Source: a virus. From it: DNA of 59,685 bases. A model generated the notes under the pieces. It had not been told where the DNA came from and did not search any database. It saw nothing but the letters and a program-made list of their open reading frames with translations. The translations under genes and the position numbers were made by a program. The DNA lies in the IMG/VR virus record IMGVR_UViG_3300008110_000055, positions 1-59,685 of that record; one strand, written 5' to 3'. Shown piece after piece: positions 1,221 to 52,990 of this stretch (position 1 is its first letter; every line of letters begins with the position of its first letter).

Positions 1221-1221
1221 C

Positions 1222-1614
1222 ATGGCAACTAACGCTAATTACGCCTCAACCCCGCGAGCTGCTGTAGCCGTCCTTAACGCCGCTAACACGAACCGAGATG
1301 GTACGGGTACGATCGTAACCATTCTGTCTGGCGGTGCTAGCGGTACTCGCGTAGACGATATCCGTATTTCGGCTACCGGTACTACCACTGCAGGTATGAT
1401 TCGCTTCTACCTCAGTCTGGATGGAGGTACAACCAGTCGCTTGCTGTTCGAGGTACCAGTCACTGCTATTACTCCGAGTGCTACGGTACCCTCGTTCCAG
1501 TCTATCCTGACTAACCTAGGCATCCTGCTACCGGATGCTAACGCCCAGCTAAGAGCTTCGACCAACAACGCCGAAAGCTTCCACTTGGCTGTGACTCGGG
1601 CTGGAAACTTCTAA
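1222..1614 (+). CDS. Small hypothetical structural protein (130 aa)
   Basis: I do not recognise this family with certainty. The protein is Thr/Ala/Gly-rich and predicted beta-rich (for example TTAGMIRFYLSLDGGTTSRLLFEVPV), which resembles capsid- or fibre-associated jelly-roll or beta-sandwich proteins. It starts 1 nt after the preceding fibre gene and is probably co-translated with it. A fibre or appendage accessory role is inference from position. Confidence 0.55.
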   Translation: MATNANYASTPRAAVAVLNAANTNRDGTGTIVTILSGGASGTRVDDIRISATGTTTAGMIRFYLSLDGGTTSRLLFEVPVTAITPSATVPSFQSILTNLGILLPDANAQLRASTNNAESFHLAVTRAGNF

Positions 1615-1616
1615 GC

Positions 1617-1970
1617 ATGAACGTAGGCATTTTTAGTGGGGTTCTGGGGGCTACGCCTTCGGACCCCGTAAGCATCCGAAACAGGGTATCTAACAGGGCT
1701 ACCAACCTGTCTGTACTGGATAGGGGTGGATCCGTACGCAAGACGGATACGGGAGCCTACACTTACGCAATCCGACCTGACGTAATCGAAGGATGGAACG
1801 ATGACGCTGCTATTCTAGTAGCTAACGATGGCAGCTCCGGAGATCTGACCGTAGCAGGGCAAGGTACGGTAGTCATTACCGCAGGCACTACGGTAGGAGC
1901 CGTTACTATTCCTCCCGGAGATAGCAGGCTTCTAAGCCGAGTAGGCGTGGATAGTTGGAGAGCTAGATAA
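1617..1970 (+). CDS. Hypothetical fibre-cluster protein (117 aa)
   Basis: An unrecognised small protein, beta-rich toward the C-terminus (VVITAGTTVGAVTIPPGDSRLL). It lies 2 nt after one gene and 1 nt before the next, so it belongs to the same operon of presumed tail appendage proteins. No motif, signal peptide or membrane segment is seen. Confidence 0.55.
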   Translation: MNVGIFSGVLGATPSDPVSIRNRVSNRATNLSVLDRGGSVRKTDTGAYTYAIRPDVIEGWNDDAAILVANDGSSGDLTVAGQGTVVITAGTTVGAVTIPPGDSRLLSRVGVDSWRAR

Positions 1971-1971
1971 G

Positions 1972-2679
1972 ATGGGAATTATCCAAGCAGCAGCTAGACC
2001 CCGTAGAGGGCTAGCAGGACCGATTAGTGTGGTGCACTCGTCTGTTTCTCACTATTCGGGAAGCGATGGCGAGTGGCAGATCATTATCCCTGATCCCGGC
2101 ACACTGCTAGCTAATGACGTAGTAGTAGTTTATAGCTCGACTATTAATGGTAGATGGAACGTGCCTACCCCTTCCGAGAACCTATGGGCAACTATTGGCG
2201 GAGACTTTCAGCAAGTAAATAGCAGAAACTATGCTTCAGAGGGACTTGTCCGACGTTTTGAGACAAATGGATCTTTGACACTGGCAGAAAGGACATTTAA
2301 GTACTTCACCAACTTTATCAACTCTACATCGCAGCTTGTAGTCGTAGTACTACGTGGTGTACGCAATAGCGGAACGTTTGTACAAGTTGACATTGGTCCA
2401 CGCGCTTATTCAACATTCGTTCCTCCCACAACCCCGTCGCCAGTATCAGCTGCTCGCGGTGGTTCAGGAAGCTTAGCTCTATCTTTCGGTCACACTCTTA
2501 GTGGTACTATTGGAGGTCCTCCGGGAGGATGGACTAACATCATTCAGCAGGATAACGCTGCAGGCGTCGCTTACTGCGAAGGGCAGTGGTTCCCAGCCGA
2601 TGGCACAACTACGCAGTTTGCTAGAACCCCGAGCCCGGCAACACGTGGCTTCGGTCTGATCCACTTTATCGCTCCTTGA
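1972..2679 (+). CDS. Hypothetical fibre-cluster protein (235 aa)
   Basis: The protein has a Ser/Gly-rich, beta-strand pattern and repeated short phrases (SDGEWQIIIPDPGTLLANDVVVV; later SGTIGGPPGGW) reminiscent of glycan- or surface-binding domains of phage tails. The codon mix is slightly more AT-rich than the neighbouring genes, with several plain ttt/gct codons, which fits a recently exchanged host-range module. Function is not established. Confidence 0.55.
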   Translation: MGIIQAAARPRRGLAGPISVVHSSVSHYSGSDGEWQIIIPDPGTLLANDVVVVYSSTINGRWNVPTPSENLWATIGGDFQQVNSRNYASEGLVRRFETNGSLTLAERTFKYFTNFINSTSQLVVVVLRGVRNSGTFVQVDIGPRAYSTFVPPTTPSPVSAARGGSGSLALSFGHTLSGTIGGPPGGWTNIIQQDNAAGVAYCEGQWFPADGTTTQFARTPSPATRGFGLIHFIAP

Positions 2680-2687
2680 GGTGATCC

Positions 2688-3020
2688 ATGAACCCGCTCA
2701 TTACCAACATTAATGCTCACGTACAGAGCGAGACCCTCGCTACGCGTACCATCATTGCGTGGAATCCAGTAGCTAATACCGGATCCATCAACTACGAATG
2801 CTCCGACTTCTACCAGCTTCGTTCAGACGGTAGCTACTTCGGAGTACCAGTACCTAACACCACGATCTCGGTACCTCTAGAGGAAGTCATTAACGAGACA
2901 GTTAACGTCGAGGTGGCTCCGGGAGTCTTCCAGCCCGTACCGATGACACTAGTAGCCGGAGCTATTAAGGCCCACTTTGCTGCTAAAGTTGCTCAACTAA
3001 GAGCCCGCAACGCGGGATAA
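2688..3020 (+). CDS. Hypothetical protein of the fibre cluster (110 aa)
   Basis: A small soluble protein with an N-terminal mixed region and a helical Ala-rich C-terminus (AIKAHFAAKVAQLRARN). An SD-like GAGG precedes the ATG. It may be a fibre chaperone or baseplate accessory. That suggestion rests only on location and size. Confidence 0.5.
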   Translation: MNPLITNINAHVQSETLATRTIIAWNPVANTGSINYECSDFYQLRSDGSYFGVPVPNTTISVPLEEVINETVNVEVAPGVFQPVPMTLVAGAIKAHFAAKVAQLRARNAG

Positions 3021-3033
3021 CGGAGGTACTATC

Positions 3034-3426
3034 ATGTCAGGATTTGCAGTTACCCAGCGCGCTTTCCGTTTTCAGGTAGGCACGCGTGAGTTCGCTATCG
3101 ATATCCAGCAGAACATCCTATTCGAGACAGAGCCGGGCGGTATCGGCGTATCACTATACGAGCGTGAAGGTGCCGTATGGCTTAACAAGTTTATCGAGTT
3201 CGGGCAGCCGCTCATGGGTGCCGGTGACGCAGCTATTACTGCAGCGGGAGGTGTCGTGCCGTTCTGTAGACTTATCGTAGGACGCGTCAACAAGGCGCTT
3301 AACGTGATCTTCGGGGCTACTAACGTAGATCCTCCCAAAAACCTAGCGGAGCAAGTACAGGATTACCTGCTAGCCAATCTCAAAGTTGTATACGTAGACG
3401 GCAAGCCGCAGGTACAGCTAACCTAA
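3034..3426 (+). CDS. Hypothetical protein (130 aa)
   Basis: Unrecognised. The ATG is preceded by CGGAGG. The sequence has alternating hydrophobic stretches (MGAGDAAITAAGGVVPFCRLIVGRV) that could be a weak membrane-associated or glycine-rich loop segment but are not a clear transmembrane helix. It sits just before the endolysin and is likely late-expressed. Confidence 0.5.
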   Translation: MSGFAVTQRAFRFQVGTREFAIDIQQNILFETEPGGIGVSLYEREGAVWLNKFIEFGQPLMGAGDAAITAAGGVVPFCRLIVGRVNKALNVIFGATNVDPPKNLAEQVQDYLLANLKVVYVDGKPQVQLT

Positions 3427-3436
3427 CGAGGGAACT

Positions 3437-3997
3437 ATGTCACGTCCATTCAGCCTAAACGTACGTCGCCAGACTGCGGCTGACTTGGTAAGGCACGAAG
3501 CGATCCGGGAGTTTGCTTACCCGGATCCTTTGTCTTTACTAGCCCGCAAGTACAGACGATTGAAGTGGGGATTTGTACCAGCAAGACAGCTACTGGAGCA
3601 GGTACCAGAAGGCGAAGAGCACGGACGTCCTTGGACTGTAGGAGTAGGATTCACTCAAGGAGTAACCCCTGACTCCCGTATGACCCGAGAGCAGTCTCTT
3701 CGCAAGCTGGACGAAAAGGTAGGCAAGTACGCTGGAGATCTACAAAGACTGATCCCCGACATCACCGAACACCCGTTCGTTATCCAGACAGTATTTCTAA
3801 ATCTAATCTTCAACATGGGCTTTGAGCGACTAGCAAAGTTCAAGAATACACTAGCTTTTCTCCGTCAGCGAGACTATCAGTCGGTAGCTGATAACCTAGA
3901 AAAGTCGCTCTGGTATCGCCAAGTAGGCACCAGAGCCGTGGAGCTAGTAGAGCGCGTAAGAACTCTATCCATCAAACAGGAGCACGTATTCCGATGA
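3437..3997 (+). CDS. Endolysin, T4-type lysozyme (GH24-like, 186 aa)
   Basis: This protein should cleave the glycan strands of peptidoglycan at the end of infection. The T4-lysozyme triad can be placed: Glu21 in RHEAIREF, Asp30 in AYPD (the same nine-residue spacing as T4 E11-D20), and Thr67 in PWTVGVGFT (T4 Thr26). About 30 extra residues (about 31-65) separate the Asp from the TVGVG strand, which is unusual for the family. No signal peptide or SAR helix is seen, so export should need a holin. Candidates are at 29.1-29.8 kb. The gene overlaps the next by 4 nt (ATGA). Confidence 0.8.
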   Translation: MSRPFSLNVRRQTAADLVRHEAIREFAYPDPLSLLARKYRRLKWGFVPARQLLEQVPEGEEHGRPWTVGVGFTQGVTPDSRMTREQSLRKLDEKVGKYAGDLQRLIPDITEHPFVIQTVFLNLIFNMGFERLAKFKNTLAFLRQRDYQSVADNLEKSLWYRQVGTRAVELVERVRTLSIKQEHVFR

Positions 3998-4290
3998 GCA
4001 AGAAGAACAAGAAGGCCGTAGCACTGGACTGCAACATCGTAGTCCTTACCAACGACATGACCCCGCAGAAGGTAGCTCTCATGGAGATGTTCTACCGGGG
4101 AGCCTTCGCTAACACCCTAGGCTACATGGATGCCCTTAACGAAGAGACTGGCGAAGTTGAGCAGCTAATCGTAGGCTTCGACAAGAACGCCGTCAACGGT
4201 CAGGTAGACACCTATCCGCTAGCCCGTCTCTTGGCTCCCAGCGAAGTAGCTAAGTACAAGGCACCAGACGGTAAGGGCGGGTACTTCTGA
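3994..4290 (+). CDS. Hypothetical protein before small terminase (98 aa)
   Basis: A soluble protein with a Lys-rich start and a C-terminal Gly/Lys-rich tail. It overlaps the endolysin stop (ATGA) and ends 1 nt before the terminase small subunit. No family recognised. The position hints at a packaging or head accessory role. Confidence 0.55.
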   Translation: MSKKNKKAVALDCNIVVLTNDMTPQKVALMEMFYRGAFANTLGYMDALNEETGEVEQLIVGFDKNAVNGQVDTYPLARLLAPSEVAKYKAPDGKGGYF

Positions 4291-4291
4291 T

Positions 4292-4717
4292 ATGACAACT
4301 CAGGCCGACAAGGCTTGGATCAACGACTTGAAGGACGCTTACCTACAGGGGGCGTCCGACGTCGAGATCTGCAAGATCCTTAAGATGACTCAACGAGAGT
4401 TCGACTCCTACTACGAGAAGTCTCCAAACTTCAAGGAGATGGTAGATATCGGACGTATGATGGCTAAGGCGTGGTGGTATGAGCAAGGTAGACGTAACAT
4501 CGAGAATACCAAGTTCAACACTACGCTATGGTCATTCAACATGAAGAACCGCTACGGTTGGGCTGACAAGACTGAGAACACTTCGGTCGATGCTGACTTC
4601 GAGGATATGGATCTCAGCAAGCTAGAGCAGATGCTTCGTAAGAAGGCACCTAGCGTACTACGCTTAATCAAGCCTACCATGACTGATGCAGAGATTGTGA
4701 ACCTCGATGCCAATTGA
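4292..4717 (+). CDS. Terminase small subunit (putative, 141 aa)
   Basis: The small terminase would recognise phage DNA and regulate the large subunit. Evidence is the helix-turn-helix-like N-terminus (DLKDAYLQGASDVEICKIL, residues about 10-30), an amphipathic helical middle with NRYGWADKTE, which is characteristic of small terminases, and its position directly upstream of and overlapping (11 nt) the large terminase. Length is normal for the family. The family call is by motif and context only. Confidence 0.75.
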   Translation: MTTQADKAWINDLKDAYLQGASDVEICKILKMTQREFDSYYEKSPNFKEMVDIGRMMAKAWWYEQGRRNIENTKFNTTLWSFNMKNRYGWADKTENTSVDADFEDMDLSKLEQMLRKKAPSVLRLIKPTMTDAEIVNLDAN

Positions 4718-7343
4718 CTTTGATTCCGATCTACCCTTGAATCCCTTTAAGCGCGTCTTCTCTTTGGAGGACGAGCTAGAGATGATGGACGCTGCCCGTC
4801 CTGACAAGGACAAGGATAACCGTAAGTCAGCGGCTCGTAAGATCTATGAGGTCACTAAGCTGATGGAAGTCTACGAGCGAAAGCTAGCAGAGGCAGGTAC
4901 TAGCAAGTGGTTCGTGGACGGTACTACTACCGACATCTCTAACTGCCCGAGACATCGTGCTTTTTTCGAGGCCGGTGCCGTTTACCACGAACGTCTGTTC
5001 ATGGCAGGCAACCGCCCGTTGGTTGCAGGTACAAAGGTACGTACGCCAGACGGCTACCACAAAAACATTGAAGACTTGAAAGAGGGAGATAAGGTACTAG
5101 CATATCAACTAAGTACTAACTCCCTAGTAGAAGCTAAAGTAACTAAAACGTATCACTACAATGAGCCAGCCTTTACTTACTCTAACGGAAAAGGCGTGTC
5201 CGTGTCTAGTACCCCAGACCATGAGTTTTTATATGTGTCTGGTAAAGGTGTATTGCGTCAAGATAAGGCAGAAAGATTAGCAGGTAAAGTGGATCGCAAA
5301 GTAGTAGTCCCATGTAAGTGGGATGTAGAAGAGAAAGATCCCGGCTTTTCAGAACGAGAGGCTTTACTGCTAGGACTACTAACTGGAGACGGGCACCTGT
5401 GTGCCAGAAATAGTCAGTTCAAGTTCACGAACAAGGCTAAGGAGTTAGTAGACTTGGCGGTAGCTTTAGGAACTGAGTTAGGAACGCAGCCGCGAGTAGT
5501 AAATAGCGGTACTTTTTATGATGTGTATTTTCCTAAACCCGAAAAAGGCAAAGGTAAGAGCACTCTGTTTCTGCTGCTAGAGCGTACTAATTTATTGGGA
5601 ACTAAGTCAGGGAATAAAACTGTACCCCAGTCACTTTTCTGCGCTCCGGTAGGGCACATCAAAGCTTATCTGCACGGACTGCTAGCTACTGATGGCTATT
5701 CGCGTTTGGGTAGGTATTGCCTCAGTACTACGTCCGCCTTGCTAGCCGAGGGCGTAGTGTCCTTGTGCCTCCGCCTTGGAATCAGAGCTACTGTCGCTAC
5801 GCGTAATCGTAAAGACCCTAACCATGCTGACGAGATTGTAGTATCTATTACAGGAGACGACAATCTAAAAGTTATCGGCAATGTGCCAACCAAGCCCTAC
5901 AAGCTACGGGGTGGTCGTGGACGAGCAGAGGTGCAAGCAGTCAGCTTTACAAAAGCAGAAGCACTAGGCAACAAAGATGTCTACTGCATCACTATTGACC
6001 ATCCAGATCACTTGTTCGTAGCTAATGGATTAGTTACTTCCAACTGTGGTAAGTCCATCTCGGGAGCTTTTGAGACGGCGTGTCATCTTACCGGACTGTA
6101 TCCAGAGTGGTGGGTAGGTAAGCGTTTCGATCACCCGATCTCAGCTTGGGCTGCCGGTCAGACGGGTCAGACTACACGCGATACCTGCCAGAAGGAGCTG
6201 CTCGGACCTCCGGGAGCCCTCGGCACTGGCATGATTCCTAAGGAGCTTATCCTAGGGACGGCGGTAAAGCAGGGCGTAGCTAACGCTATCGAACTAGTTA
6301 AGGTACGCCACGTATCAGGAGGAGTATCGGTACTAGGATTCAAGTCCTACGATCAGGGAGTCAAGGCGTTTTACGGTACGGCACAGCACGTAATCTGGCT
6401 AGACGAGGAGTGTCCTGACCTGATCTACAACGAGTGCTTGATCCGCACCATGACTACTGGTGGTATCCTGTACGTTACGTTCACTCCGCTGCACGGTATC
6501 ACCCCGTTCATCGTTAACTTCTGCAAGAACGCCAACTTCCTAGCCGGAGCTTCTCCAGTCACGATCATGACGGACGAGGAAGAGGAAGAGCAGCTAGGTA
6601 TTGGTAACAAGGCCAGCCGCGCTGTAGTCCAAGCTGGATGGGATCACGCTCCGTGGCTAGATGAAGATACCAAGAAGCGTCTAGAGGACAATACTCCTCC
6701 GCATCTACGTGAAGCTCGTCGTAACGGCACCCCATCGATCGGCTCCGGTAACGTGTATCCGATTCCAGTAGAGGAGATCGTGGTAGATGATTTCACCATT
6801 CCCGGTCACTGGCCTAAGTGGTATGGCCTAGACGTGGGCTGGAATAGAACCGCCGCTGTTTGGTTAGCCAAGAATCCAGACGATGGGTCTATCTACGTGT
6901 ACTCAGAGCACTATCGCGGACAGGCTGAGCCAGAAGTTCACGCCGCTGCTCTGAAGTCTAGGGGTGACTGGATCCGTGGGTGTATCGATCCGGCATCCAA
7001 GGGACGTTCTCAGGTAGACGGCCGCAAGCTAATCGACGTGTACCGTAAGCTAGGACTCAAGCTAGTCGAGGCCAATAACGCCGTAGAAGGTGGTATCCAG
7101 AACGTCTGGTCGCTACTAAGTTCAGGTAAGCTCAAGGTATTTAAATCCTGCGTGAACTTATTGAAGGAGTACATGGTCTATAGACGCGACCTTCAGGGAA
7201 GGATCGTAAAAGATAATGACCACGCCCTAGACGCTCTGCGCTACGGCATCAATACTGATAACGTAGCCATGGTCCAGCCGACCAATACGGCAAGACATTA
7301 CGGAGCCGCTAGTGCCCTCGGAGGAATCAGATATGACACCTAA
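4707..7343 (+). CDS. terL: Terminase large subunit precursor with in-frame intein
   Basis: This is the ATP-driven DNA-packaging motor and nuclease. The 878-residue precursor contains an intein (residues 104-446). The spliced product would be 535 residues, normal for P22-like TerL. Joining the exteins restores the Walker A motif GNRCGKS. Walker B is VIWLDEECP. The RNase H-like nuclease shows GLDVGWNRTAAVW, a central Asp in CIDPASKG, and the C-terminal DNDHALDALRY. The gene overlaps the upstream small terminase and is followed by the portal, whose SD lies inside its 3' end. Without splicing the P-loop is interrupted, so packaging should depend on splicing. Confidence 0.93.
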   Translation: MPIDFDSDLPLNPFKRVFSLEDELEMMDAARPDKDKDNRKSAARKIYEVTKLMEVYERKLAEAGTSKWFVDGTTTDISNCPRHRAFFEAGAVYHERLFMAGNRPLVAGTKVRTPDGYHKNIEDLKEGDKVLAYQLSTNSLVEAKVTKTYHYNEPAFTYSNGKGVSVSSTPDHEFLYVSGKGVLRQDKAERLAGKVDRKVVVPCKWDVEEKDPGFSEREALLLGLLTGDGHLCARNSQFKFTNKAKELVDLAVALGTELGTQPRVVNSGTFYDVYFPKPEKGKGKSTLFLLLERTNLLGTKSGNKTVPQSLFCAPVGHIKAYLHGLLATDGYSRLGRYCLSTTSALLAEGVVSLCLRLGIRATVATRNRKDPNHADEIVVSITGDDNLKVIGNVPTKPYKLRGGRGRAEVQAVSFTKAEALGNKDVYCITIDHPDHLFVANGLVTSNCGKSISGAFETACHLTGLYPEWWVGKRFDHPISAWAAGQTGQTTRDTCQKELLGPPGALGTGMIPKELILGTAVKQGVANAIELVKVRHVSGGVSVLGFKSYDQGVKAFYGTAQHVIWLDEECPDLIYNECLIRTMTTGGILYVTFTPLHGITPFIVNFCKNANFLAGASPVTIMTDEEEEEQLGIGNKASRAVVQAGWDHAPWLDEDTKKRLEDNTPPHLREARRNGTPSIGSGNVYPIPVEEIVVDDFTIPGHWPKWYGLDVGWNRTAAVWLAKNPDDGSIYVYSEHYRGQAEPEVHAAALKSRGDWIRGCIDPASKGRSQVDGRKLIDVYRKLGLKLVEANNAVEGGIQNVWSLLSSGKLKVFKSCVNLLKEYMVYRRDLQGRIVKDNDHALDALRYGINTDNVAMVQPTNTARHYGAASALGGIRYDT
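5016..6044 (+). mobile_element. Class-3-like intein with LAGLIDADG endonuclease in TerL
   Basis: This is a 343-residue intein inside the TerL P-loop (MAGNR / PLVAGTKV ... NGLVTSN / CGKS). The N-terminal splicing block aligns as P1-L2-x-x-G5-T6, so position 1 is Pro, not the Cys or Ser nucleophile. Block B is TPDHEF. Block F begins VYC, placing Cys where most inteins have Asp. Block G is NGLVTSN with Thr at G:5 and +1 Cys. These Cys and Thr residues match two of the three residues of the class 3 W-C-T signature; the Trp position is Phe. Two dodecapeptide motifs (LLLGLLTGDGHL, AYLHGLLATDGYS) mark a LAGLIDADG homing endonuclease. The DNA is more AT-rich than the exteins, consistent with independent acquisition. 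Confidence 0.9.
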
Positions 7344-36422: not shown

Positions 36423-39400
36423 TTATAGGATATCGCATACCCCCGCCGTACAAGCGAGGTTCTGTACACCAGTAGTGGTATCTTCGCGCTCGAAGTCCGA
36501 GAGCTTAGACCAGTCAATGTTCTTCGGGAAAGCTTCGGCAGCCTTTACATAAGTAAGCTCGTCGATCTCTTGGTAGGGAGCTTGCTTGTAAGTACCGCCA
36601 TCGTAGGGAAGGAACGAGATACCGCTCAGGTCGTTGAAGTTCTTAAACACCCAAGCTCCTACGTCAACCCACTCGTGTTCCTCTACGTTGATCGTGACAC
36701 TGACCTGATGCTCTGCCCAGTGCTTGTTGTAGATCATCCACAGCTCTAGGTGATCCAGCGCCTTCACATCATCACGCGTCTTGCAGACGTCGGGAGCCTT
36801 GATCGGGAAGTAGAACACTGTAGTACTGTCAGGCTTCATCACGCAAGGCTCGTTAGGAATACCCATAGCCTTCATAAAGTCCGTCATCGGATCCTTGTTG
36901 TCACCACGCACAGAGCGTAGATAGAACTTAGAGTGACGAGGGTGGATACCAGAAGCGGCGTTGGTTAGCTGACTAACTGTTCCACTTGGCTTAATTGTTG
37001 ACGTAGCAGCGGAGCGATTGATGCCTAGGGCGTCAGCTAGCTCTGCGTTAACGACGTTGACGTGCGCCTTAAGCTGCTCAAGAAACTCAGCCAGCTTAGC
37101 CTTACCCATGTCACCGTTAGTCAGACTGTTGTCGTAGATGCCAGTAAGGCTTACTCCAAGTAGTCGCTCTTCCTCAGCGTTCTTTTTCCAGATCGGACGT
37201 ACGTATCGAAAGTTGGTGAATGTAGACTGGATCGTACCAAGGATCGCAGCGATGCTAGCCTTGCGCAGAAGAGAGCTTTCAGTATCATCAGCACGTACCA
37301 CTACCTCACTCAGTTATGTTAATCCCAATTCGCTAGATCGGGACGATAGGTTTTAAGTACCCACTGCGAGAACTTAACAAGTTCGTCAACGCTGGCTGCA
37401 CCTTTCATAGCGTTAGCACATTGACTTAGAACTTGGATGTTATCCTTAGTATAACCACGGTCATTATCAATTCTATCTAAGCTGGGGCTATTCTTATAAG
37501 CTCCCGATTTGCCTGAGTTAGCATTGATAGTAATGCCTGTAGCTGGACATACATCAGGAATCATAATGTCGTCTGCGGTCAGATCAAACTCAATGCCCTT
37601 GTATTTGGCACGCTGTTTAGCTCTCTGCCACATCTTCCATTGAGGAGTCATGCTTTTTACTCGACTGCAATTGCACTTCTTACAAAGTACCATCTTGCTA
37701 GTCTTCTCGAAGATAACTCCGCAGTTAGTACATTCTCTGTGCGTATCTGATTCCAGATAGCCCATGAGATTCTTCTTGAGTTCCATAGGTGTCCTCCTCT
37801 AGAGGTAAGGTTATGTAATCTTGTGACATTACATAGACACCAATAGTTCCCTAAAACCTATACCCTTATGTTTCCATAAGGCTCAGACTATATCATCACC
37901 CTCTTGCGAGGGGCTGGGCGCTTCCACTCCGCTTGGAGTGTACGAGCATAAGCTCTAGTCGTTGAACCTTCCCCGCCTAGCGGGGCTTGGCTGCTGATTG
38001 TCCTCGTCACTACACGTTAGGAGTTTCCAGCAATTCACCCAGTTTTACAACCTCTATGATTAAAGGTTACACAAGCCCGCAGAACGCAAGGCGATTTCCG
38101 CACCTTTATTGTTACTCGTCATTTAGACGGGGTTGGACGTTTGCGCCAACCTCCTCGCATTCCTGCGAGGAACAGACTATATCATCACCCTCAGACAGAG
38201 GGGCCAATCGTCCGAGCTTGTAGAGAAAAGACTTCTTAACGTAAGGAAGAATGATAGACTCAAACTTATCATTGTCCTTAGTACGAAGAGAAAGGTACCA
38301 GTATTTGTTTTGGCGATTAACGTTGAACTCAAGGCCCAGCTTCTCACGGATAGCCTGCTTAAGCAGCAGGTTATCTCCGTAGCTAAATCCTTTAGTGTTC
38401 AGCGTATACTTCGGAGAAGCGTTGCAACGCTTATCAACAAAACGAGATCCATCGGCCATGAAGATAATAGCAAGAGCTTCAGCATCAAGCATAGTCAGCA
38501 TGTGAGGATCGATCACCTTCTTACCATCAATATAAACTCTCTCGTGAATCTTGGTCAGCAGCGGATGCACGCGACTTTCTAGGCGCACTTGCGGAGCGCG
38601 ATTAAATCCGTCCGTGTTGTAGTCCTTACGCTGATAGATACGAGTACCGCAGTTTATAGCAGCGAGACTGTCTGCACACATAGTCACATAATCAAGATTA
38701 GCTTCGCGCATGTTCATAATGAACCTAGCGTTGTCGCACTTGCCAGTGATGTACAGCCCGCCGTCAAACGTACTAAAGTAATAGAGACGCTTGATGATAT
38801 CTTTCTTGTTGCTCATAGTCGTTACACCTCCCATATCGGGTTGGCACGGTATTGTCTGGTCTAGACTTCCACCGTTTTTAGATTGGTTATTCAGCGCAGT
38901 TTACACTGCGAGGCCGCTAGCATTTAACGGGTTAGTGCCTACGATCTTATCGGCGTCACGCTTACCGATACGCTCCGTCTTATCTCGGATACCCTTACGA
39001 TAGTAGATCCCGCGCTCGCCACTCTTACTGTTGTAAAGAGATGTCCACTCTTCTAGGAACTGACCGATGGTCGGTACGTCCTCGTACACGGCGGAGTTGT
39101 TAGCCAGAGCAAACTCCGGGTTACGCTCCCACCACATACCAGCCTTGGCGTCACGTACACGAGGAGAGCTTAGGTCAGACAGAGAGATCAGCGCCGAACG
39201 GCGTACGCCGCCAACCACTACAATCTCACCAATCTTGCAGACTAGGCCATGTACCTCTAGATCAGTGAGCTTGCGGCCAGCAGCACCACGGAAAGTACGA
39301 ATGGTATAATTGAATAGATCCACCAGCGGGTCAGGACCAGACGCGCGTCCTCCAAATACCTTAAGCCTCGCTCCCTTGGGCCGGACTTTGGATACATCGA

Positions 39401-39914
39401 AACGAGGCAGCTTGCCAGCATAGAGCATAGCAATAAGCTCGCGGTAAGCAGAGGCCCAGCCAATCCTGCTATCGCCAACCACGATAGTAGAGTCTGTTTC
39501 ATGGAAAGACTCTGCTACGTCAGGTAGCTGATTTACGTAGCGGGTTTCGCAGGAGAACCCTACCCCAGTACCACACGTCAGGATGTACAGGATCTCGTCG
39601 AATGCTCGGGGATGATCCATCGCCACGAACGAGCAGTTGTACAGCGCCATCTCGTCCCGCTTCGCCGCTTCGCCTGCTGTCATCAGTGCTCTCATCGAGG
39701 GCATGACTTCTAGGTTCAGGATCGCTGAGCGAATCTCGGACTTGTCGATACTGAGCTGCGGCACTTTGTCCAGCACCGGAGCTACGATGTTCGTCATGTA
39801 GCGGTCCACTGTCTCCGGCCACGTCTCTCGTCGGTTCTGTTCCGGAAGCCAACGGCTGTACCGGCTTAGGGCAATGAATGTCTGGAAGTCTGTTGGTAGG
39901 TAATTCGTCGTCAT
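36423..39914 (-). CDS. nrdJ: Class II ribonucleotide reductase in three exons (638 aa)
   Basis: Adenosylcobalamin-type (RTPR-like) reductase making dNTPs. Exons read as 39914-38927, 38103-38063 and 37310-36423 (minus strand). Joined they give 1917 nt with no stop before the end. The junctions restore GTNP-CAEIALRSAGLCNL-SEVVVR, a sequence expected in this family. Other motifs: MALYNCSFVAMD (substrate-site Cys), STFTNFRYVRPIW, EEERLLGVSLTGI, and the C-terminal Cys pair ACTAGVC. The start ATG follows AAGGAAACTG. The two intervening segments are group I introns carrying homing endonuclease genes, so functional enzyme requires RNA splicing. Confidence 0.9.
37311..38062 (-). ncRNA. Group I intron 2 in nrdJ
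   Basis: A 752-nt intron between exons 2 and 3. P1 pairs exon AACCUU with intron GAGGUU, giving a U-G pair at the 5' splice site, and the intron ends with G before AGTGAGG. The core shows phage group IA-type phrases, in order: TTGCTGGAAACTCC, CAATCAGCAGCCAAG, GTTCAACGACTAGA, GATATAGTC, then a P9-like hairpin CCTTATG-GAAA-CATAAGG with a GNRA loop. An HNH endonuclease gene lies downstream of P9. Confidence 0.9.
37319..37786 (-). CDS. HNH homing endonuclease in nrdJ intron 2 (155 aa)
   Basis: Presumed to promote intron transfer by cutting intronless nrdJ. N-terminal zinc-finger-like Cys pairs (CTNCGVIF, CKKCNCS) are followed by an HNH-type core: CPATGITIN, SLDRIDNDRGYTKDNIQVLSQ with the Asp-Arg-Asp pattern and Asn motif of this group, and a C-terminal ANAMKGAASVDEL. 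The ATG has GAGGAGG upstream. The ORF ends 8 nt before the 3' splice site, downstream of the ribozyme core. Confidence 0.85.
   Translation of the reverse strand: MELKKNLMGYLESDTHRECTNCGVIFEKTSKMVLCKKCNCSRVKSMTPQWKMWQRAKQRAKYKGIEFDLTADDIMIPDVCPATGITINANSGKSGAYKNSPSLDRIDNDRGYTKDNIQVLSQCANAMKGAASVDELVKFSQWVLKTYRPDLANWD
38104..38926 (-). ncRNA. Group I intron 1 in nrdJ
   Basis: An 823-nt intron between exons 1 and 2. P1 pairs exon CCGU with GCGG a few bases inside the intron, placing a U-G pair at the 5' splice site. The last intron base is G (ATAAAG before GTGCGG). The core phrase GGTGATGATATAGTCTG is shared exactly with intron 2, and a P9-like hairpin CCTCGCA-GGAA-TGCGAGG with a GNRA loop follows. 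It carries a LAGLIDADG endonuclease ORF whose 3' end overlaps the core. Confidence 0.88.
38112..38816 (-). CDS. LAGLIDADG homing endonuclease in nrdJ intron 1 (234 aa)
   Basis: Predicted intron-homing nuclease. The motif AEALAIIFMADGSR is a LAGLIDADG-type helix with catalytic Asp. Only one clear dodecapeptide is seen, with a weaker first copy possible at KRLYYFSTFDGGL. The start at 38816 (MSNKKD) follows GGGAGGTG. Codons for the last 30 residues (GDDIVCSSQECEE...) are at the same time the P7/P9 core of the ribozyme. The stop is 8 nt before the 3' splice site. Confidence 0.82.
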   Translation of the reverse strand: MSNKKDIIKRLYYFSTFDGGLYITGKCDNARFIMNMREANLDYVTMCADSLAAINCGTRIYQRKDYNTDGFNRAPQVRLESRVHPLLTKIHERVYIDGKKVIDPHMLTMLDAEALAIIFMADGSRFVDKRCNASPKYTLNTKGFSYGDNLLLKQAIREKLGLEFNVNRQNKYWYLSLRTKDNDKFESIILPYVKKSFLYKLGRLAPLSEGDDIVCSSQECEEVGANVQPRLNDE

Positions 39915-47397: not shown

Positions 47398-48198
47398 TTA
47401 CGCTGGTAAACTTTCTATGAACTCGGTGAACTCTTCGTCGTCCATGTCCTTGACATCCTTCCTTCCGATCCTTATACTCAGAGGAAGGAGGTGTGAATAC
47501 TTGATTGCCTGACGCACGGCCTTGTCCTTAGCATCAGGATCGAGACTAAGAATAGCACGGCATCCAAGAGATTGCAACTCTTCAGCCATCAACTGAGTGA
47601 AGTCTCCGCCCAAGATAGCAGCAGCGTTGACACCGCTAGACGCCAAGCGAATCGCAGACGGAGCATCCTCAGTAACCACGACACGCTGGTGGGCGATGGA
47701 TGTGTCTGCTTTGTAGTACGCCAGCGCATTAGCGTTGTCGTTCTTATACGTGACTGCCTTCTTGAATCCGTCCTTCTTCTCGACCATGCGTCCGATGAAT
47801 CCACCGAACCGTCCGTCGTAAGTGTTGATCGGAATCCAGAGCCTGCCGTTACCATCGAGATCAGTGTACCACTCGATGCCAGCATCAGCACACATGCTAA
47901 CTGTCAGGTGAAACTTGGACAGGATACGAGGGTACATATCCTCAGGGATCTCGCTACGATTCACACGCGGTACAGGTTTGCGCCGTGACTTTACATCTGT
48001 AAAGCTTTTGCCGATGCAAGGAACGATGCCCTGAATACCACAGCTAGCACGATGACACTTGTAACCTAGGAAGTTGTTGTCTACTTGGAAGATGTTGAAC
48101 GTCGCCTCTCGTGTAGCCCCGCCTTCGCAGACAGGGCACACGTTAGCAGACGACGGGCCGATGCGGAGTACCTCCTCTTGCAGCCCGTTGTACTTCAT
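47398..48198 (-). CDS. DNA primase, zinc-ribbon plus TOPRIM (266 aa)
   Basis: Makes RNA primers. The N-terminal zinc ribbon is NVCPVCEGG ... YKCHRASCG (four Cys). The TOPRIM fold shows RVVVTEDAPSAIRLA (catalytic Glu) and AILSLDPDAKDKA (DxD). Length and split from the helicase are as in several phages that encode the two halves of a T7 gp4-like enzyme separately. The ATG overlaps the stop of the amidotransferase by one base. Confidence 0.88.
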   Translation of the reverse strand: MKYNGLQEEVLRIGPSSANVCPVCEGGATREATFNIFQVDNNFLGYKCHRASCGIQGIVPCIGKSFTDVKSRRKPVPRVNRSEIPEDMYPRILSKFHLTVSMCADAGIEWYTDLDGNGRLWIPINTYDGRFGGFIGRMVEKKDGFKKAVTYKNDNANALAYYKADTSIAHQRVVVTEDAPSAIRLASSGVNAAAILGGDFTQLMAEELQSLGCRAILSLDPDAKDKAVRQAIKYSHLLPLSIRIGRKDVKDMDDEEFTEFIESLPA

Positions 48199-49463
48199 CA
48201 GACTGCGGCCCGCTCGATCGTAGACTCTACAGGTCGGATGGTCGTGGTACCAATCACGGCGTGCATAGCCTTCTCCGGAATGTGAGTCTTGGCATTAGCG
48301 ACGTGGATGTTGGTGCATCCGATGATATCGCCAGACCAGATAGCCTCGGAATCCCGATAGAGTTTGTTGAACGTATCCTCGTCTCGGCCACAGTAGATGA
48401 CAAGCTTGCCCTCGTACATCAGCTTCTGAACCGAAGGAGACTTGATCTCCGTCTCAGTATCGGAAGGCCAGAAGGTACCGAACACAGTACGGGTATTCTT
48501 GTCTACCTCGCTGACAAAGAACTCTACCTTGGTACCACGAACAGCAGCGATGGTAGCAGCCAGCGTGTCATCCGCTGTAGCCACACTATCGTCAAAAGGG
48601 ACTACGTTGCTGGCAGCAGGCGCGGTGCTAGTCGTGATGAGGTTGTACTTCTGCTGGAGTTTGGCAAGATCGTCGAACGATCCGTCGTAGAGTGACGTGC
48701 TGGTAAACGAACGGCTCCACTCGATCTCCTTCTTAGAGTACGTGACCTTAGTCTCCTTGAGGTTGAGGATGTACAGAGTGTCAGCCTGCGCAGCCATGAC
48801 GTTGTTCGTGGTCTTGAGCTTGTTGCGCTCCGCCAGCCAGTGCAGCATGCCCGGCTCGCTGGCGAACAAACAGTACGTACCATCGTCCGACATGAGAGCG
48901 TGCATCGGACGGCGTCCGTTGTTGGCAACGTACATCTTGGACGGGTCGTCGTCGAAGAAGAACATTACAGAGTAAGCACCCGACAGACTGCAGAGGATCT
49001 CAGCGATCTGTGTATCACGCGCCTCGTCGTCCAGAGCAGCCGCCTCTACCAGCTTACCGAACAGCCACTCAGAGTCGGACACGTAGTCCTTGCCGAGCGT
49101 GTAACCAGACAGCGTGCCGTTATGGACACCCACGATGGAGACGTCGTACTCCTTGTTCCACAGACGGAACGGATGAGCTGCATCGACAGTGACTTCGCCC
49201 ACGGTAGCCGCACGATTGTGCCCGATAACCATGTAGGAGTGATCGACTTCGTCGAGGATAGCCTTAGTGGCACGGCTGGTAAGGAACGAAGCCGGGGCCA
49301 GCACATCCTTGTGCATCATCACGTGACTGTTGCTAGTCATGACAGCGAGACCGCAGCTATCTTCACCACGCACAGCTCCGGCGATCAGGGCATCCGATAC
49401 AAACTTATTGAGATCCTTGACCGGAGTGGGCGAGACATTGACAAGTCCGAAGATACCACACAT
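48198..49463 (-). CDS. Class II glutamine amidotransferase (GATase-fold, 421 aa)
   Basis: Begins MCGIFGLV, so Cys2 becomes the N-terminal nucleophile after Met removal. Other Ntn-type motifs are RGEDSCGLAVM, MVIGHNRAATVGEV, VHNGTLSGY and DSEWLF. It should release ammonia from glutamine or act as a related amide hydrolase/transferase. The C-terminal half (about 240-421) is unlike known synthase partners and may give the specificity. It stands at the downstream end of the amidoligase/ATP-grasp operon. Confidence 0.87.
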   Translation of the reverse strand: MCGIFGLVNVSPTPVKDLNKFVSDALIAGAVRGEDSCGLAVMTSNSHVMMHKDVLAPASFLTSRATKAILDEVDHSYMVIGHNRAATVGEVTVDAAHPFRLWNKEYDVSIVGVHNGTLSGYTLGKDYVSDSEWLFGKLVEAAALDDEARDTQIAEILCSLSGAYSVMFFFDDDPSKMYVANNGRRPMHALMSDDGTYCLFASEPGMLHWLAERNKLKTTNNVMAAQADTLYILNLKETKVTYSKKEIEWSRSFTSTSLYDGSFDDLAKLQQKYNLITTSTAPAASNVVPFDDSVATADDTLAATIAAVRGTKVEFFVSEVDKNTRTVFGTFWPSDTETEIKSPSVQKLMYEGKLVIYCGRDEDTFNKLYRDSEAIWSGDIIGCTNIHVANAKTHIPEKAMHAVIGTTTIRPVESTIERAAV

Positions 49464-49488
49464 ATGTCAGTTCCTTATAGCTTAGGGT

Positions 49489-50451
49489 TCAATAGAATTG
49501 GCGCGCCACGGTGACGGAATGATCCGACGCTTCGTCCGAATCGCCCTGGTGGCCATGCGTTGCTGCATCGACCTCGGTGCTATCCTCGAAGGCGTCATCG
49601 AACATAAGACCGCCGAGCATCACGAGCACATCGTCGCGGTGACGCATGTCGTCTTCGTCGCTTACAGAAGTAAGATTCAAGAACTCCGCATGTGCAGGCA
49701 GGTACCGAGTGATGAACTCCCGGATAGTAGCGCAGTCGCTCAAGAGCTCACGCACGTCAGCGCCAGACAACGACACCTTCTTCTGCTCAAGGCACATGTT
49801 CACCAGACCATACACTCCCTCTCGGCTAAGCCCACCAAAGTAGCGATACTCGATGGTGCCATACTTAGCAAGGGCAGTGATGTTAAAGCCGAGATAACGG
49901 TGTCCACCGACGAGCTGCTGAACAGCGCTATCGCACGGACGGTTGGTGACGTTAGTAGTCAGCAGACGGCTAGCCGCGAGCGACACAGCGTAGCAGTTAG
50001 CTTCGCGATGGGTGCCTGCAGTACCTACCACATACGGCTCCACGATAGCGGCAAGGGCCAGCGTGCGGGCCACCTGATCAGACGTGGTATCCGAGTAGTT
50101 GATGTGGACGTGAGTGGAAGTACGGACAGAATCTTCCAGCCCGTTGGCTGCCTTGATCTCGAACATCGCATCGATAGCAGTGCAGGCAGCCTCACCAAAC
50201 AAGGGCTGAGAGAACACCAGCTCGATGCCATTGCGCAGGCTGCCGTCGCCGTGAGGCGTGACAAGCGCACGATTGATCAGCGAGTTACTGCCCCAGTAAC
50301 GCAGACGATCCCCGCGAATGTTCATGTCCGGCTGCTCAAGCTCCAGCTCAACGCCTACATATTCAGTAGGAAGGGCCAGTTGAGCCGAGCCGCGCTGCTC
50401 GATACCGACGCGGCGAGTAACACCGAACATATCATGAATAGTCACAGGCAT
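49489..50451 (-). CDS. Amidoligase-fold (glutamine-synthetase-like) protein 1 (320 aa)
   Basis: Predicted ATP-dependent amide ligase of the phage/bacterial amidoligase family. Motifs match this family: VGVELELE (about 31-38, metal/ATP Glu), PHGDGSLRNGIELVF (about 64-78), THVHINYSD (about 115-123), TIEYRYFGG (about 204-212) and REGVYGLVNM. A Lys- or Arg-rich second half follows. Its product would be an amide bond between an amine and a carboxyl group, but substrates are unknown. It overlaps the unknown 242-aa gene by 10 nt. Confidence 0.85.
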   Translation of the reverse strand: MPVTIHDMFGVTRRVGIEQRGSAQLALPTEYVGVELELEQPDMNIRGDRLRYWGSNSLINRALVTPHGDGSLRNGIELVFSQPLFGEAACTAIDAMFEIKAANGLEDSVRTSTHVHINYSDTTSDQVARTLALAAIVEPYVVGTAGTHREANCYAVSLAASRLLTTNVTNRPCDSAVQQLVGGHRYLGFNITALAKYGTIEYRYFGGLSREGVYGLVNMCLEQKKVSLSGADVRELLSDCATIREFITRYLPAHAEFLNLTSVSDEDDMRHRDDVLVMLGGLMFDDAFEDSTEVDAATHGHQGDSDEASDHSVTVARQFY

Positions 50452-51170
50452 GGCACCACCTTAGGAAGAGTACGAGAAACAGTGGACTGAGTACGGCTAT
50501 CGATAAGACGATTGGATCGGGTATCGACTTTGTAGGTACCGTCGTCCTGACGAATGACCTTGAACATACCGTTACACATGCTGTAATGGAACCATACCTC
50601 AGTGCCGACGCGGAACAGGAGCATGGTCGGGGAGATGGCCAGCGTCGTAGTGTAGCTAGAGTTAAAGTCTGTCAGCGTGGCAACAGCCTGCTCGAAGCTG
50701 ACGTACATGCCACCAGTAAAGGCGGAATGAAGGACACGGAGAATACGGTAGCTGTCACTGGTCCAGCTACTGCCCACGTGAGGGCCGTCAGTGTGGGCAC
50801 CACCGACCCGCACCGAGCGCTCGCCGTAGCCACGAACGTAGCCACCCACCTTACGCTGTAAGAAGTAGCGACCAGTAAGCGTGCCGTCCTCCTCGCAGAT
50901 GTTGACGAAGCCGGAACGAACGATCGGCAAGAGATTGTCAGGATCGAACACAGCACGGAGCTGGTTAACTCCGAGACGAAACTCGCGCCCGATCAGATCG
51001 CTACCGCTGCTCTGGATGATCTTGCTGGCAGTGCAGGCAAGTCCTTCCTCTCGTCGGTAGAACGCACGCAGCATGATCACGGAGTCGTTGAACCGCATAA
51101 AGCAGTTGCCCAACGATCGCTGGAGATCATCGACATTCAGCACGTCGAAGGTGTGCTTCTTGATTTCCAT
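50442..51170 (-). CDS. Unknown partner gene of the amidoligase operon (242 aa)
   Basis: I do not recognise this protein. It has regularly spaced strand-like segments (VGGYVRGYGERSVRVGGAHT; AFTGGMYVSFEQAVATL; TEVWFHYSMCNGMFKVIRQ), no membrane helix and no nucleotide-binding motif. It sits between the two amidoligases and overlaps amidoligase 1, so it could be a substrate carrier, scaffold or third catalytic subunit of the same pathway. Confidence 0.7.
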   Translation of the reverse strand: MEIKKHTFDVLNVDDLQRSLGNCFMRFNDSVIMLRAFYRREEGLACTASKIIQSSGSDLIGREFRLGVNQLRAVFDPDNLLPIVRSGFVNICEEDGTLTGRYFLQRKVGGYVRGYGERSVRVGGAHTDGPHVGSSWTSDSYRILRVLHSAFTGGMYVSFEQAVATLTDFNSSYTTTLAISPTMLLFRVGTEVWFHYSMCNGMFKVIRQDDGTYKVDTRSNRLIDSRTQSTVSRTLPKVVPCL

Positions 51171-51173
51171 GTG

Positions 51174-51443
51174 TCACATCTCTGAGGTGGTATACTTGGG
51201 GAAGTTAGCTGGCTTTGGCTTAACTCCAGCCAGCTCGGACGTGTTGCCCCGAGCCATGACTTCTTTGTTCTCGGAGTCCGTGATGATAATGGCACTACAG
51301 AAGGAATACTTCCGAAAGCCTACGTCTTGCCGGACCTCGCGCTCTGCGTCTAGATCATTAGCAGCCGCTACCTTACCGCTGTAAAACTTACCGTGGTACT
51401 TGAGCCGGTAGTAGTACTGCTTATAGGAGATTGAACTGACCAA
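51174..51443 (-). CDS. Small unknown protein between ATP-grasp and 242-aa gene (89 aa)
   Basis: A TTG start at 51443 is preferred because AAGGAG lies seven bases upstream, inside the end of the ATP-grasp gene. Longer in-frame starts have no site. Sequence features: YYYRLKYHGKFYSGKVAA and an acid/basic C-terminal part ending KPANFPKYTTSEM. Its small size and basic Tyr/Lys-rich content make it a candidate acceptor or carrier peptide for the ligases. That is speculation. Confidence 0.6.
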   Translation of the reverse strand: MVSSISYKQYYYRLKYHGKFYSGKVAAANDLDAEREVRQDVGFRKYSFCSAIIITDSENKEVMARGNTSELAGVKPKPANFPKYTTSEM

Positions 51444-52170
51444 CGTAGAACTCCTTTGTTGAGGGAGCAGACAGCGCAGGAGCCGTGTTAACTTCGAGAA
51501 CATAGAGCCTGTCCTTCTTACTTACGATCAGATCTACTGCACCGAAGTCCAGTCCGCAGTTACGCACTGCGCGCTGAGCCATGTGAACCATGTCAGTAGT
51601 GACCGGGTCCACGTTGTCGGAACAGTACACCCAGCCGTGATGATAGCTGCGGATAAGGGCCGAGTAGTCCTCCTCGCTAGCGCCGTTACGCTTGCGCTTC
51701 TGCTGCACGAAGAAGTTATCCGACCACGTGTTAACGTGGATACGGTACTCAGCTTTCTTACGGATGTAAGCAGTGTACAGCTTAGCATCAGGCAGATCAT
51801 CAGGAGTACGGCACACTACGATGCCGTCTCCCGAATGGCTGGTCAGCTTGGTGCGAGCGAAGACGATGCGTCCCTCCTTCTCACGCAGCCATGCCGCTGC
51901 TTCCTCCTTGTCCAGCCAGTACGGAGGCCGGTCTTCGGCGTTGCCGGTACGAATGAAGAACTCTCGCTTGTCCGTAGCAAGGTGCGTGTCGATGTTGAGG
52001 ATCTTATCCGAGTAAGTAACCGGACCGCAGTTACCCCAGAAGATTACCCGTTCGTACTTGCGGATAACCCGGTCAAGCCGGGACAGGGACACCCGTCGGC
52101 ACGACGGCAGACTGCGACGCAACACTGCGGCGCTGGCGCTGGGGCGAGGACAGACGATTGCAAACTTCAT
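51421..52170 (-). CDS. ATP-grasp ligase (249 aa)
   Basis: ATP-grasp family enzyme expected to activate a carboxylate as acyl phosphate and join it to an amine. The start at 52170 (MKFAIVCPRPSA) has GGAGAA upstream; the longer ORF to 52260 is rejected. Family residues: EYRIHVNTWSDNFFVQQKR (Lys/Arg), GLDFGAVDLIVSKKDRLYVL and LEVNTAPALSAPSTKEFYV (metal-binding Glu/Asn, TAPAL loop). It overlaps amidoligase 2 by 98 nt. Its partners are the two amidoligases. Confidence 0.85.
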   Translation of the reverse strand: MKFAIVCPRPSASAAVLRRSLPSCRRVSLSRLDRVIRKYERVIFWGNCGPVTYSDKILNIDTHLATDKREFFIRTGNAEDRPPYWLDKEEAAAWLREKEGRIVFARTKLTSHSGDGIVVCRTPDDLPDAKLYTAYIRKKAEYRIHVNTWSDNFFVQQKRKRNGASEEDYSALIRSYHHGWVYCSDNVDPVTTDMVHMAQRAVRNCGLDFGAVDLIVSKKDRLYVLEVNTAPALSAPSTKEFYVGQFNLL

Positions 52171-52990
52171 TGATGGGTTCTCCACAGATACGAATGTACT
52201 CGGCTGCGCTGGCGTAGTTGTTGAAGCGGATGTTGCCGGCCCACGCGTGAGCATGGTCATACAAGTTCATGACCACTTGCCGTTCGCTAGTCTCCGGCTG
52301 CTGAGCAAGCCACCGTCCAAACTCAGTATACTTAGTAGCTCCTTCGATCGCAAAGCTATAGATAAACTCACCTCGCGTCTGGCTCTCGATGCTGTCGATC
52401 CAGCTAGCCCAGTAGCGAGTGAACAGCATCTGAGCAACGAGCACCTTAGCATTGACGGTACCCTTGAACATGCGGAACTCGACACGGTTGTTGCGCAGAG
52501 CGATGCCGTGCCTACATGACTGCCTACCGAACGCATACCCGCCGTCACTATCCATATACCTGCAGCTCGCCATCGAGGCGAACGAGTTATAGCCGTAACG
52601 CCGTGCGATATGCCGCAAGAAGCCGGCGTTATGATCAGCGCCGCTGTAGAAAATAGCCCGCCGCCATGCCGGAGTTTTGTTGGCAGCATTCAGGTTGATG
52701 TGAAGACCGTATCGATCACCACCTTCTTCCATCTCCACACGAGAGAACAGAGTGGTAGCCATGCGGTAGATCTTACCGATGTCATCATACGCTCCGAACA
52801 CGAACTCTACACCGTTAGCTCCGAGAGAACCGTCGCGTTCAGCACGGATGCCACGCACCGTCTGAGCTTGGTTGAAAGAGAAACGATTGACGTTAACCTC
52901 AAGCTCGATGCCCAGACCGTAGCCGTTAGGGTCGAGACTACTGCCCCGGTAAAGTGGGCCGCGATAAGAGTGATACCCGTACTGACGCAT
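52073..52990 (-). CDS. Amidoligase-fold protein 2 (305 aa)
   Basis: Second member of the same family, similar in motif order to the protein at 49489 but diverged: LGIELEVN (about 27-34), ERDGSLGANGVEFVF (about 51-65), YGLHINLN (about 94-101), NNRVEFRMFKGT (about 171-182). The C-terminus (about 280-305) lacks conserved features and overlaps the ATP-grasp gene. Two paralogues with one ATP-grasp enzyme imply either two ligation steps or two substrates. Confidence 0.83.
   Translation of the reverse strand: MRQYGYHSYRGPLYRGSSLDPNGYGLGIELEVNVNRFSFNQAQTVRGIRAERDGSLGANGVEFVFGAYDDIGKIYRMATTLFSRVEMEEGGDRYGLHINLNAANKTPAWRRAIFYSGADHNAGFLRHIARRYGYNSFASMASCRYMDSDGGYAFGRQSCRHGIALRNNRVEFRMFKGTVNAKVLVAQMLFTRYWASWIDSIESQTRGEFIYSFAIEGATKYTEFGRWLAQQPETSERQVVMNLYDHAHAWAGNIRFNNYASAAEYIRICGEPINEVCNRLSSPQRQRRSVASQSAVVPTGVPVPA

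Follow-up and report, generated by a model that had tools for sequence, protein, structure and literature searches.

How can a phage gene that is interrupted twice, at points 41 nucleotides (nt) apart within its active-site codons, still encode an enzyme, and what brought two insertions so close together? The question is raised by nrdJ on the minus strand of the IMG/VR virus contig IMGVR_UViG_3300008110_000055, all 59,685 bases of which were analyzed and are called the window here. The gene encodes a class II ribonucleotide reductase (RNR). We consider it very probable that two mobile group I introns entered it independently of each other and that both are spliced out to give one nrdJ message. 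The twin-intron gene is confirmed as real and well supported from its sequence; its parts are ordinary and the arrangement is a variation on known ones, while the splicing is what we infer. The interesting finding is the shared insertion region, a magnet for selfish elements, each intron being an ordinary member of a mobile family.

Gene structure and the empty allele

Two insertion sites recur throughout. Site A is the codon of the cysteine in the motif NPC, and site B is the position after CNL; a variant of the latter, B', lies 6 nt upstream (FC|NL). The interrupted gene reads as follows:

38927 to 39914, minus strand: nrdJ exon 1, 988 nt, codons 1 to 329 and the first base of codon 330
38104 to 38926, minus strand: group I intron 1 at site A, 823 nt, 3' end ...UAAAG
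38063 to 38103, minus strand: nrdJ exon 2, 41 nt, encoding (C)AEIALRSAGLCNL
37311 to 38062, minus strand: group I intron 2 at site B (between CNL and SEV), 752 nt, 3' end ...ACUG
36423 to 37310, minus strand: nrdJ exon 3, 888 nt

Exon 1 ends in AAC CCG T. When the three exons are joined, they form a single open frame of 638 amino acids with no stop and restore NPCAEIALRSAGLCNLSEVVVR; skipping exon 2 or removing just one intron brings immediate stops into the nrdJ frame. An uninterrupted nrdJ whose protein is 97% identical is found in IMGVR_UViG_3300032103_000007 (L003, the same contig as L057). The NrdJ assignment comes from this intron-less relative, which aligned to 1L1L, a solved B12-dependent enzyme, with an E value of 5.9e-50, and from the match of the window exons to phrog_367. 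The spliced window gene and that of L003 align without gaps over 1,917 nt, with 1,707 positions identical and 210 different, and 175 of the 210 differences fall at third codon positions. L003 is an empty allele of both introns and thus fixes the exon and intron boundaries. The coordinates proposed in an earlier note on this DNA therefore hold, and the same frame and alignment bear out its claim of a 41-nt middle exon between two group I introns, both of which do end in the G that it reported. Its proposed test needs correction. A reverse transcription-polymerase chain reaction across 39.0 to 37.2 kb was expected to give a 1.9-kb product, which is the length of the whole spliced nrdJ; the expected product of that interval, if spliced, is about 226 nt (1,801 minus 1,575).

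The small exon carries the active site. In the alignment to 1L1L, GTNPCAEIALRSAGLCNL matches GTNPCGEISLANGEPCNL. Numbered backward from residue 419, which is the CNL cysteine, the glutamate comes out as residue 410 and the cysteine of NPC as residue 408. Exon 2, aligned to residues 408 to 421, spans Cys408 to Cys419 plus two residues. We take Cys408 to be the thiyl radical carrier, Glu410 to be a catalytic participant, and Cys419 to be a redox cysteine. The 41-nt exon, covering Cys408 to Cys419, thus amounts in essence to the catalytic loop, and the NPC cysteine, presumably the radical one, has its codon split by intron 1. The two introns do lie in the most conserved part of nrdJ, the active-site segment named in the earlier note.

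Covariation in the two ribozymes

Against the Rfam model RF00028 (gathering score, 50), intron 2 scores 96.4 bits and intron 1 scores 27.4 bits (E = 3.3e-4 when 3.5 kb was searched); the intron 1 relatives L137 and L139 pass, with 51.8 and 60.1 bits. Because intron 1 is under the gathering score, both ribozymes were tested by covariation in relatives, with pairing percentages compared with shuffled maxima. The set for the intron 1 family comprised 23 distinct sequences; L232 (different host gene) and L258 and L338 (without the 3' core) were left out, and L246 and L250 were missed by the motif used. The landmarks of intron 1 are as follows:

38927 to 38930, minus strand: 5' half of P1, CCGU, with the U at the splice site; pairs with GCGG
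38914 to 38917, minus strand: internal guide sequence, GCGG, from sequence and covariation
38816 to 38820, minus strand: 5' strand of P7, GACUA, overlapping the A of the conserved open reading frame (ORF) start codon
38204 to 38209, minus strand: 3' strand of P3, GAUUGG, which pairs with CCAAUC of the 5' core
38112 to 38834, minus strand: LAGLIDADG homing endonuclease ORF, with a conserved start at 38816 in an alignment of 12 relatives

P1 occurs in the family as CCGU/GCGG, CCUU/GAGG, GCGU/GCGC, GCAU/GUGC, and GCUU/GAGC. It is paired in 90 of 92 cells (shuffled maximum, 90%), with double changes at two of its four pairs, and the closing pair is U-G in 22 of the 23 sequences. P3 is paired in 137/138 cells (83%), with double changes at all six pairs. 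Pairing is likewise complete or nearly so in P2 (115/115; shuffled maximum, 58%), P4 (113/115; 91%), P6a (69/69; 90%), and P9 (161/161; 77%). P7, GACUA/UAGUC, is paired in 115/115 cells and is invariant, hence uninformative for covariation. Taken across the alignment, covariation proves the predicted intron 1 ribozyme. The ORF lies between the 5' strand of P7 and the 3' strand of P3, and its 3' part overlaps P3', P8, P7', and P9; its product matches LAGLIDADG_2, PF03161, with E = 4.4e-22 and 79.2 bits (cut-off, 25).

The intron 2 set held 33 sequences, 30 of them distinct, L152 being left out by a filter. Two features of this intron are referred to below:

38049 to 38054, minus strand: internal guide sequence, GAGGUU, pairing with AACCUU at 38068 to 38063
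37319 to 37786, minus strand: HNH/endonuclease-VII-like ORF, downstream of P9

The exon end pairs fully with the guide in 29 of the 33 sequences, the window included, and partially in 4. P3 and P7.2 are both paired in 150/150 cells (shuffled maxima, 71% and 92%), with double changes at four of five and five of five pairs, respectively; P4 is paired in 178/180 (87%) and P9 in 207/210 (78%), and P7 is invariant. Here too, the covariation proves the ribozyme deduced for intron 2. Extra hairpins, P7.1/P7.2, lie between P7 and P3, and we take these to be the mark of subgroup IA. A search by eye for a P10 pairing gave none that was convincing for either intron.

Several earlier suggestions can be judged from these data. 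The P1 pairings with U-G at both 5' splice sites are real and covary in relatives, and the proposed Rfam check came out in favor of intron 2 and, for intron 1, of two relatives. The two endonucleases are indeed unrelated; one had been called LAGLIDADG and the other HNH. PF03161 bears out the first; the second has the HNH label through PHROGs alone (phrog_3322, E = 2.9e-33, and phrog_1035, E = 2.3e-21, annotated as endonuclease, endonuclease VII, or HNH), and no Pfam family matched it above its cut-off, HNH models included. Its family alignment has invariant Cys pairs and an L-D...D...G-Y...N motif.

Site preference and movement

Each intron belongs to a family that favors its own site. Of 28 viral loci with relatives of the LAGLIDADG intron, 27 have the insertion at one and the same Cys codon in genes for RNR large subunits. 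In 18 of these, nrdJ is interrupted at site A (judged by hidden Markov model [HMM] or flanks); in the other 9, the gene encodes a more divergent large subunit and the matching codon is that of N-A-C (four of these translated and the rest judged from DNA flanks, with L258 lacking its 3' side). The remaining locus, L259, is in an NrdB-like gene. One further site A locus came from a genome collection, on a 4.4-kb contig binned as an archaeon (L338, JACGUG010000077.1); that contig could be viral. Two isolates, Pseudomonas phages HHBS10_2 and SPA01, also have members of this family, in an NrdB-like and an NrdA-like gene. Relatives of the HNH-type enzyme number 80; among the best 35, 29 interrupt nrdJ at B or B', and none of the 45 weaker ones does. 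Besides the window, 33 nrdJ genes have the HNH intron (two isolates included), 12 at B, among them L152, and 21 at B'. The guides fit the sub-sites: GCAGAA/UUCUGU at B', GAGGUU/AACCUU at B, and GGAGAU/AUCUCU one nucleotide further on. The two isolates, Rhizobium phage RHph_N3_13 and Roseobacter phage CRP-7, have relatives of intron 2 in nrdJ at B'. In another contig (L154, approximately 895 to 6483), nrdJ is in four pieces: the HNH intron occupies site B, and other inserts lie near codons 93 and 455. Upstream, at 895 to 1264, Rfam gives one more group I match, of 68.2 bits.

For the LAGLIDADG ORF, identity with its counterpart in L139 is 71%, against just 27% between the two nrdJ genes; for the HNH ORF, identity with its counterpart in L150 is 72%, against 50% for nrdJ. 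Together with the 97% identical L003 that lacks both introns, this shows horizontal homing and not descent. In the explanation that we favor, two mobile group I introns from different families would have entered a tailed-phage nrdJ independently. The LAGLIDADG enzyme would direct homing of the intron 1 family to the catalytic cysteine codon of the N-P-C motif; for the intron 2 family, the HNH-type enzyme would direct it to the C-N-L segment, which lies 41 nt further downstream. Both ribozymes would self-splice, each by its own guide (GCGG and GAGGUU), yielding a 1,917-nt message and a 638-amino-acid enzyme, and the 41-nt exon would be the mere spacing of two independently favored homing sites. 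Both sites would lie in this segment because it carries catalytic residues and hardly varies. Self-splicing, the cleavage specificity of both enzymes, and the order of arrival we infer from sequence.

Other elements at site A and double occupancy

Site A receives other elements as well. Inteins there are confirmed by Pfam in L035, L039, L074, and L152 (the splicing domain of L039 is just under its cut-off) and were read from the sequence in L040, L075, L076, and L123. L075 and L076 have a split-intein-like arrangement, in which a stop closes an N-terminal part and a C-terminal part comes after it; in L076, a separate ORF stands between the intein parts, with Ser +1 at the end. The NrdJ-1 split intein also has Ser +1, according to passages of PMC13123727, and the arrangement in L075 and L076 would be at the same site as that intein. 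Compact group I introns without an ORF, 170 to 190 nt long (eight lengths determined), occupy exactly site A, for example, in L071 (3446 to 3617, 172 nt), L014 (5965 to 6140), and L130 (4769 to 4956). Their nine-member consensus, in which L341 is represented by 161 of 190 nt, its 5' part being absent, is paired in 377/392 cells over 45 pairs, with double changes at 21 pairs; P1, P3, and P9 covary. Rfam misses this family; RF00028 reported no group I intron in L071 up to E = 10. Of the 26 contigs with the P7' motif of the compact introns, 18 have an nrdJ interrupted at site A as judged by HMM, and two more are partial; the other six (L339, L345, L347, L352, L354, and L361) look like chance matches.

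These surveys provide a background for double filling. The nrdJ queries gave 134 loci, 5 without the segment. Among the 129 that cover it, 119 are empty (including L054, counted so because its sequence reads through), 10 are filled at site A (7 intein-like elements and 3 compact introns), and none is filled at site B. Site A is also filled in 2 of 34 site B genes, the window counted: the window itself and L152 (IMGVR_UViG_3300037424_000222), in which an intein (PF14890, E = 1.3e-13, with HNH_3) is followed by a 42-nt exon and then the HNH intron. Because 2/34 is close to the background of 10/129, independent homing suffices and no special mechanism is needed; with co-occupancy near background, the elements do not seem to exclude each other.

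Intron 1, the 41-nt exon, and intron 2 might instead move as one composite homing unit, which we consider unlikely. Third-position changes relative to L003 are denser in exon 2 than elsewhere (8/14 versus 167/625; Fisher p = 0.017), as expected from co-conversion, which is only suggestive; one other nrdJ stretch is as divergent. If such a unit existed, the piece coding for the catalytic core would itself be mobile and would be overwritten by co-conversion at each homing. A stringent pattern running from the 3' end of intron 1 into the 5' core of intron 2 matched the window alone and gave no second intron-intron gene in viral_contigs; it would miss double-intron genes with other ends, and viral_contigs possibly lacks the window's own record. 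The two introns have one 20-nt stretch in common, at 38192 to 38173 and 37903 to 37884 (minus strand; nt 735 to 754 of intron 1 and 160 to 179 of intron 2), covering P8' and P7'. It is a possible recombination point, and recombination there would delete exon 2.

Alternative explanations

Several observations weigh against independent invasion followed by splicing. Intron 1 taken alone stays under the Rfam threshold. Some helices pair less well than the others: P5 and P6 (85%) and P8 (94/106, 89%) in the intron 1 family and P8 (118/136, 87%) in the intron 2 family. In the chosen register, P9.1 of the former is only 39% paired and P5 of the latter 52%, values that rise to 90% and 81% when slid by one. 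The end of exon 1 (38927 to 38936) pairs with a GC-rich stretch of exon 2 at -8.2 kcal/mol versus -4.3 kcal/mol with guide 1, a pairing that could hinder splicing. In one alternative, exon 2 would usually be skipped, as happens in Twort orf142: splicing would run directly from the 5' site of intron 1 to the 3' site of intron 2 and act as an off-switch for the enzyme. Such skipping is known for short-exon twin group I introns of Twort, Coxiella, and SIOphi from sections of PMC10136302 and PMC11878797, and a pairing of guide 2 with the exon 1 end is possible at -4.8 kcal/mol. That pairing, however, puts no U-G pair at the splice site, and the skipped product has a stop directly after NP and so cannot yield enzyme. 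The Twort introns are described in part of PMC10136302 as highly similar, whereas those of the window are unrelated beyond the 20-nt core stretch, the only one with E < 0.01, and do not form a pair of that type. We regard skipping as distinctly improbable.

It is very improbable that nrdJ is broken, or works as separate polypeptides, with introns that no longer splice. Split RNRs that retain activity do exist, going by the title of Friedrich 2007 as cited in PMC2814812. Here, however, the catalytic Cys codon itself is divided and exon 2 has neither a start nor a stop of its own, the splice-site pairings and ribozyme cores are intact, and the preponderance of third-position differences from L003 indicates a protein still under selection. 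An assembly chimera, in which an assembler joined intron-bearing and other fragments, is likewise very improbable. The window is a single metagenomic virus record, and the two-intron pattern gave no second copy in viral_contigs, from which that record was possibly left out. Against this, both inserts stand at the exact family sites of many contigs, the intron 2 site also in two isolate genomes; the exon ends fit their own guides, and L152 has the same two sites filled at once.

Other features of the genome

The large terminase subunit gene of the window (4707 to 7343, plus strand, 878 amino acids) contains an intein with a LAGLIDADG_3 domain at residues ~111 to 445 (PF14528, 1.4e-11; PF14890, 2.2e-7, just under the cut-off), which would be a third self-splicing element of the same phage. 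At 48198 to 52260 on the minus strand, a cluster resembles a glutamine amidotransferase, an amidoligase (PF12224), and an ATP-grasp ligase-like protein.

Comparison with known systems

Among phage nucleotide-metabolism genes, RNR genes are those most often split by introns, according to the passages seen of PMC3653736. In the parts of the literature covered by searches for group I introns with nrdJ or class II ribonucleotide reductase, no introns at these nrdJ sites were described. Staphylococcus phage Twort nrdE, as presented in PMC3653736 in part, resembles the window in having multiple group I introns in an RNR large-subunit gene near conserved residues; it has two, one with an HNH enzyme, but nrdE is class Ib and nrdJ class II. 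Twort orf142 has an even shorter exon between introns, of 23 nt, and Coxiella burnetii 23S rRNA has a 34-nt exon between group I introns of different subgroups (both from sections of PMC10136302). In orf142, unlike in the window, the introns are a similar pair and the exon is skipped, and the Coxiella case is a bacterial rRNA gene. In Bacillus phage phiNIT1 rNDPL and the SIOphi terminase gene, too, two group I introns enclose a small exon, as complementary DNA showed (extracts of PMC11878797), but with another RNR class and other endonucleases.

The closest relatives are the nrdJ genes of RHph_N3_13 and CRP-7, whose HNH enzymes are 65 and 52% identical to that of intron 2; each has a single intron, at B', and an empty site A. 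Such introns are mis-annotated in isolate genomes as a broken nrdJ with a sigma-factor decoy between the halves. In RHph_N3_13 (MN988507.1; L230, 3239 to 3685), the HNH-type enzyme is a "postulated decoy of host sigma factor" between "partial" nrdJ halves, and in CRP-7, two reductase coding sequences flank a hypothetical protein; in the sister phage RHph_I3_11, nrdJ is intact. The coincidence of introns and inteins at conserved RNR positions in SPbeta, taken from portions of PMC3653736 and PMC2814812, is also comparable. In contrast to SPbeta, several element classes here share one codon, and in L152, an intein and an intron stand 42 nt apart. The codon of the RNR catalytic cysteine has been entered by LAGLIDADG introns, compact introns, inteins, and a split-intein-like arrangement, with HNH introns 41 nt further on, which makes this region a clean natural experiment that bears on what draws selfish splicing elements so densely to active sites.

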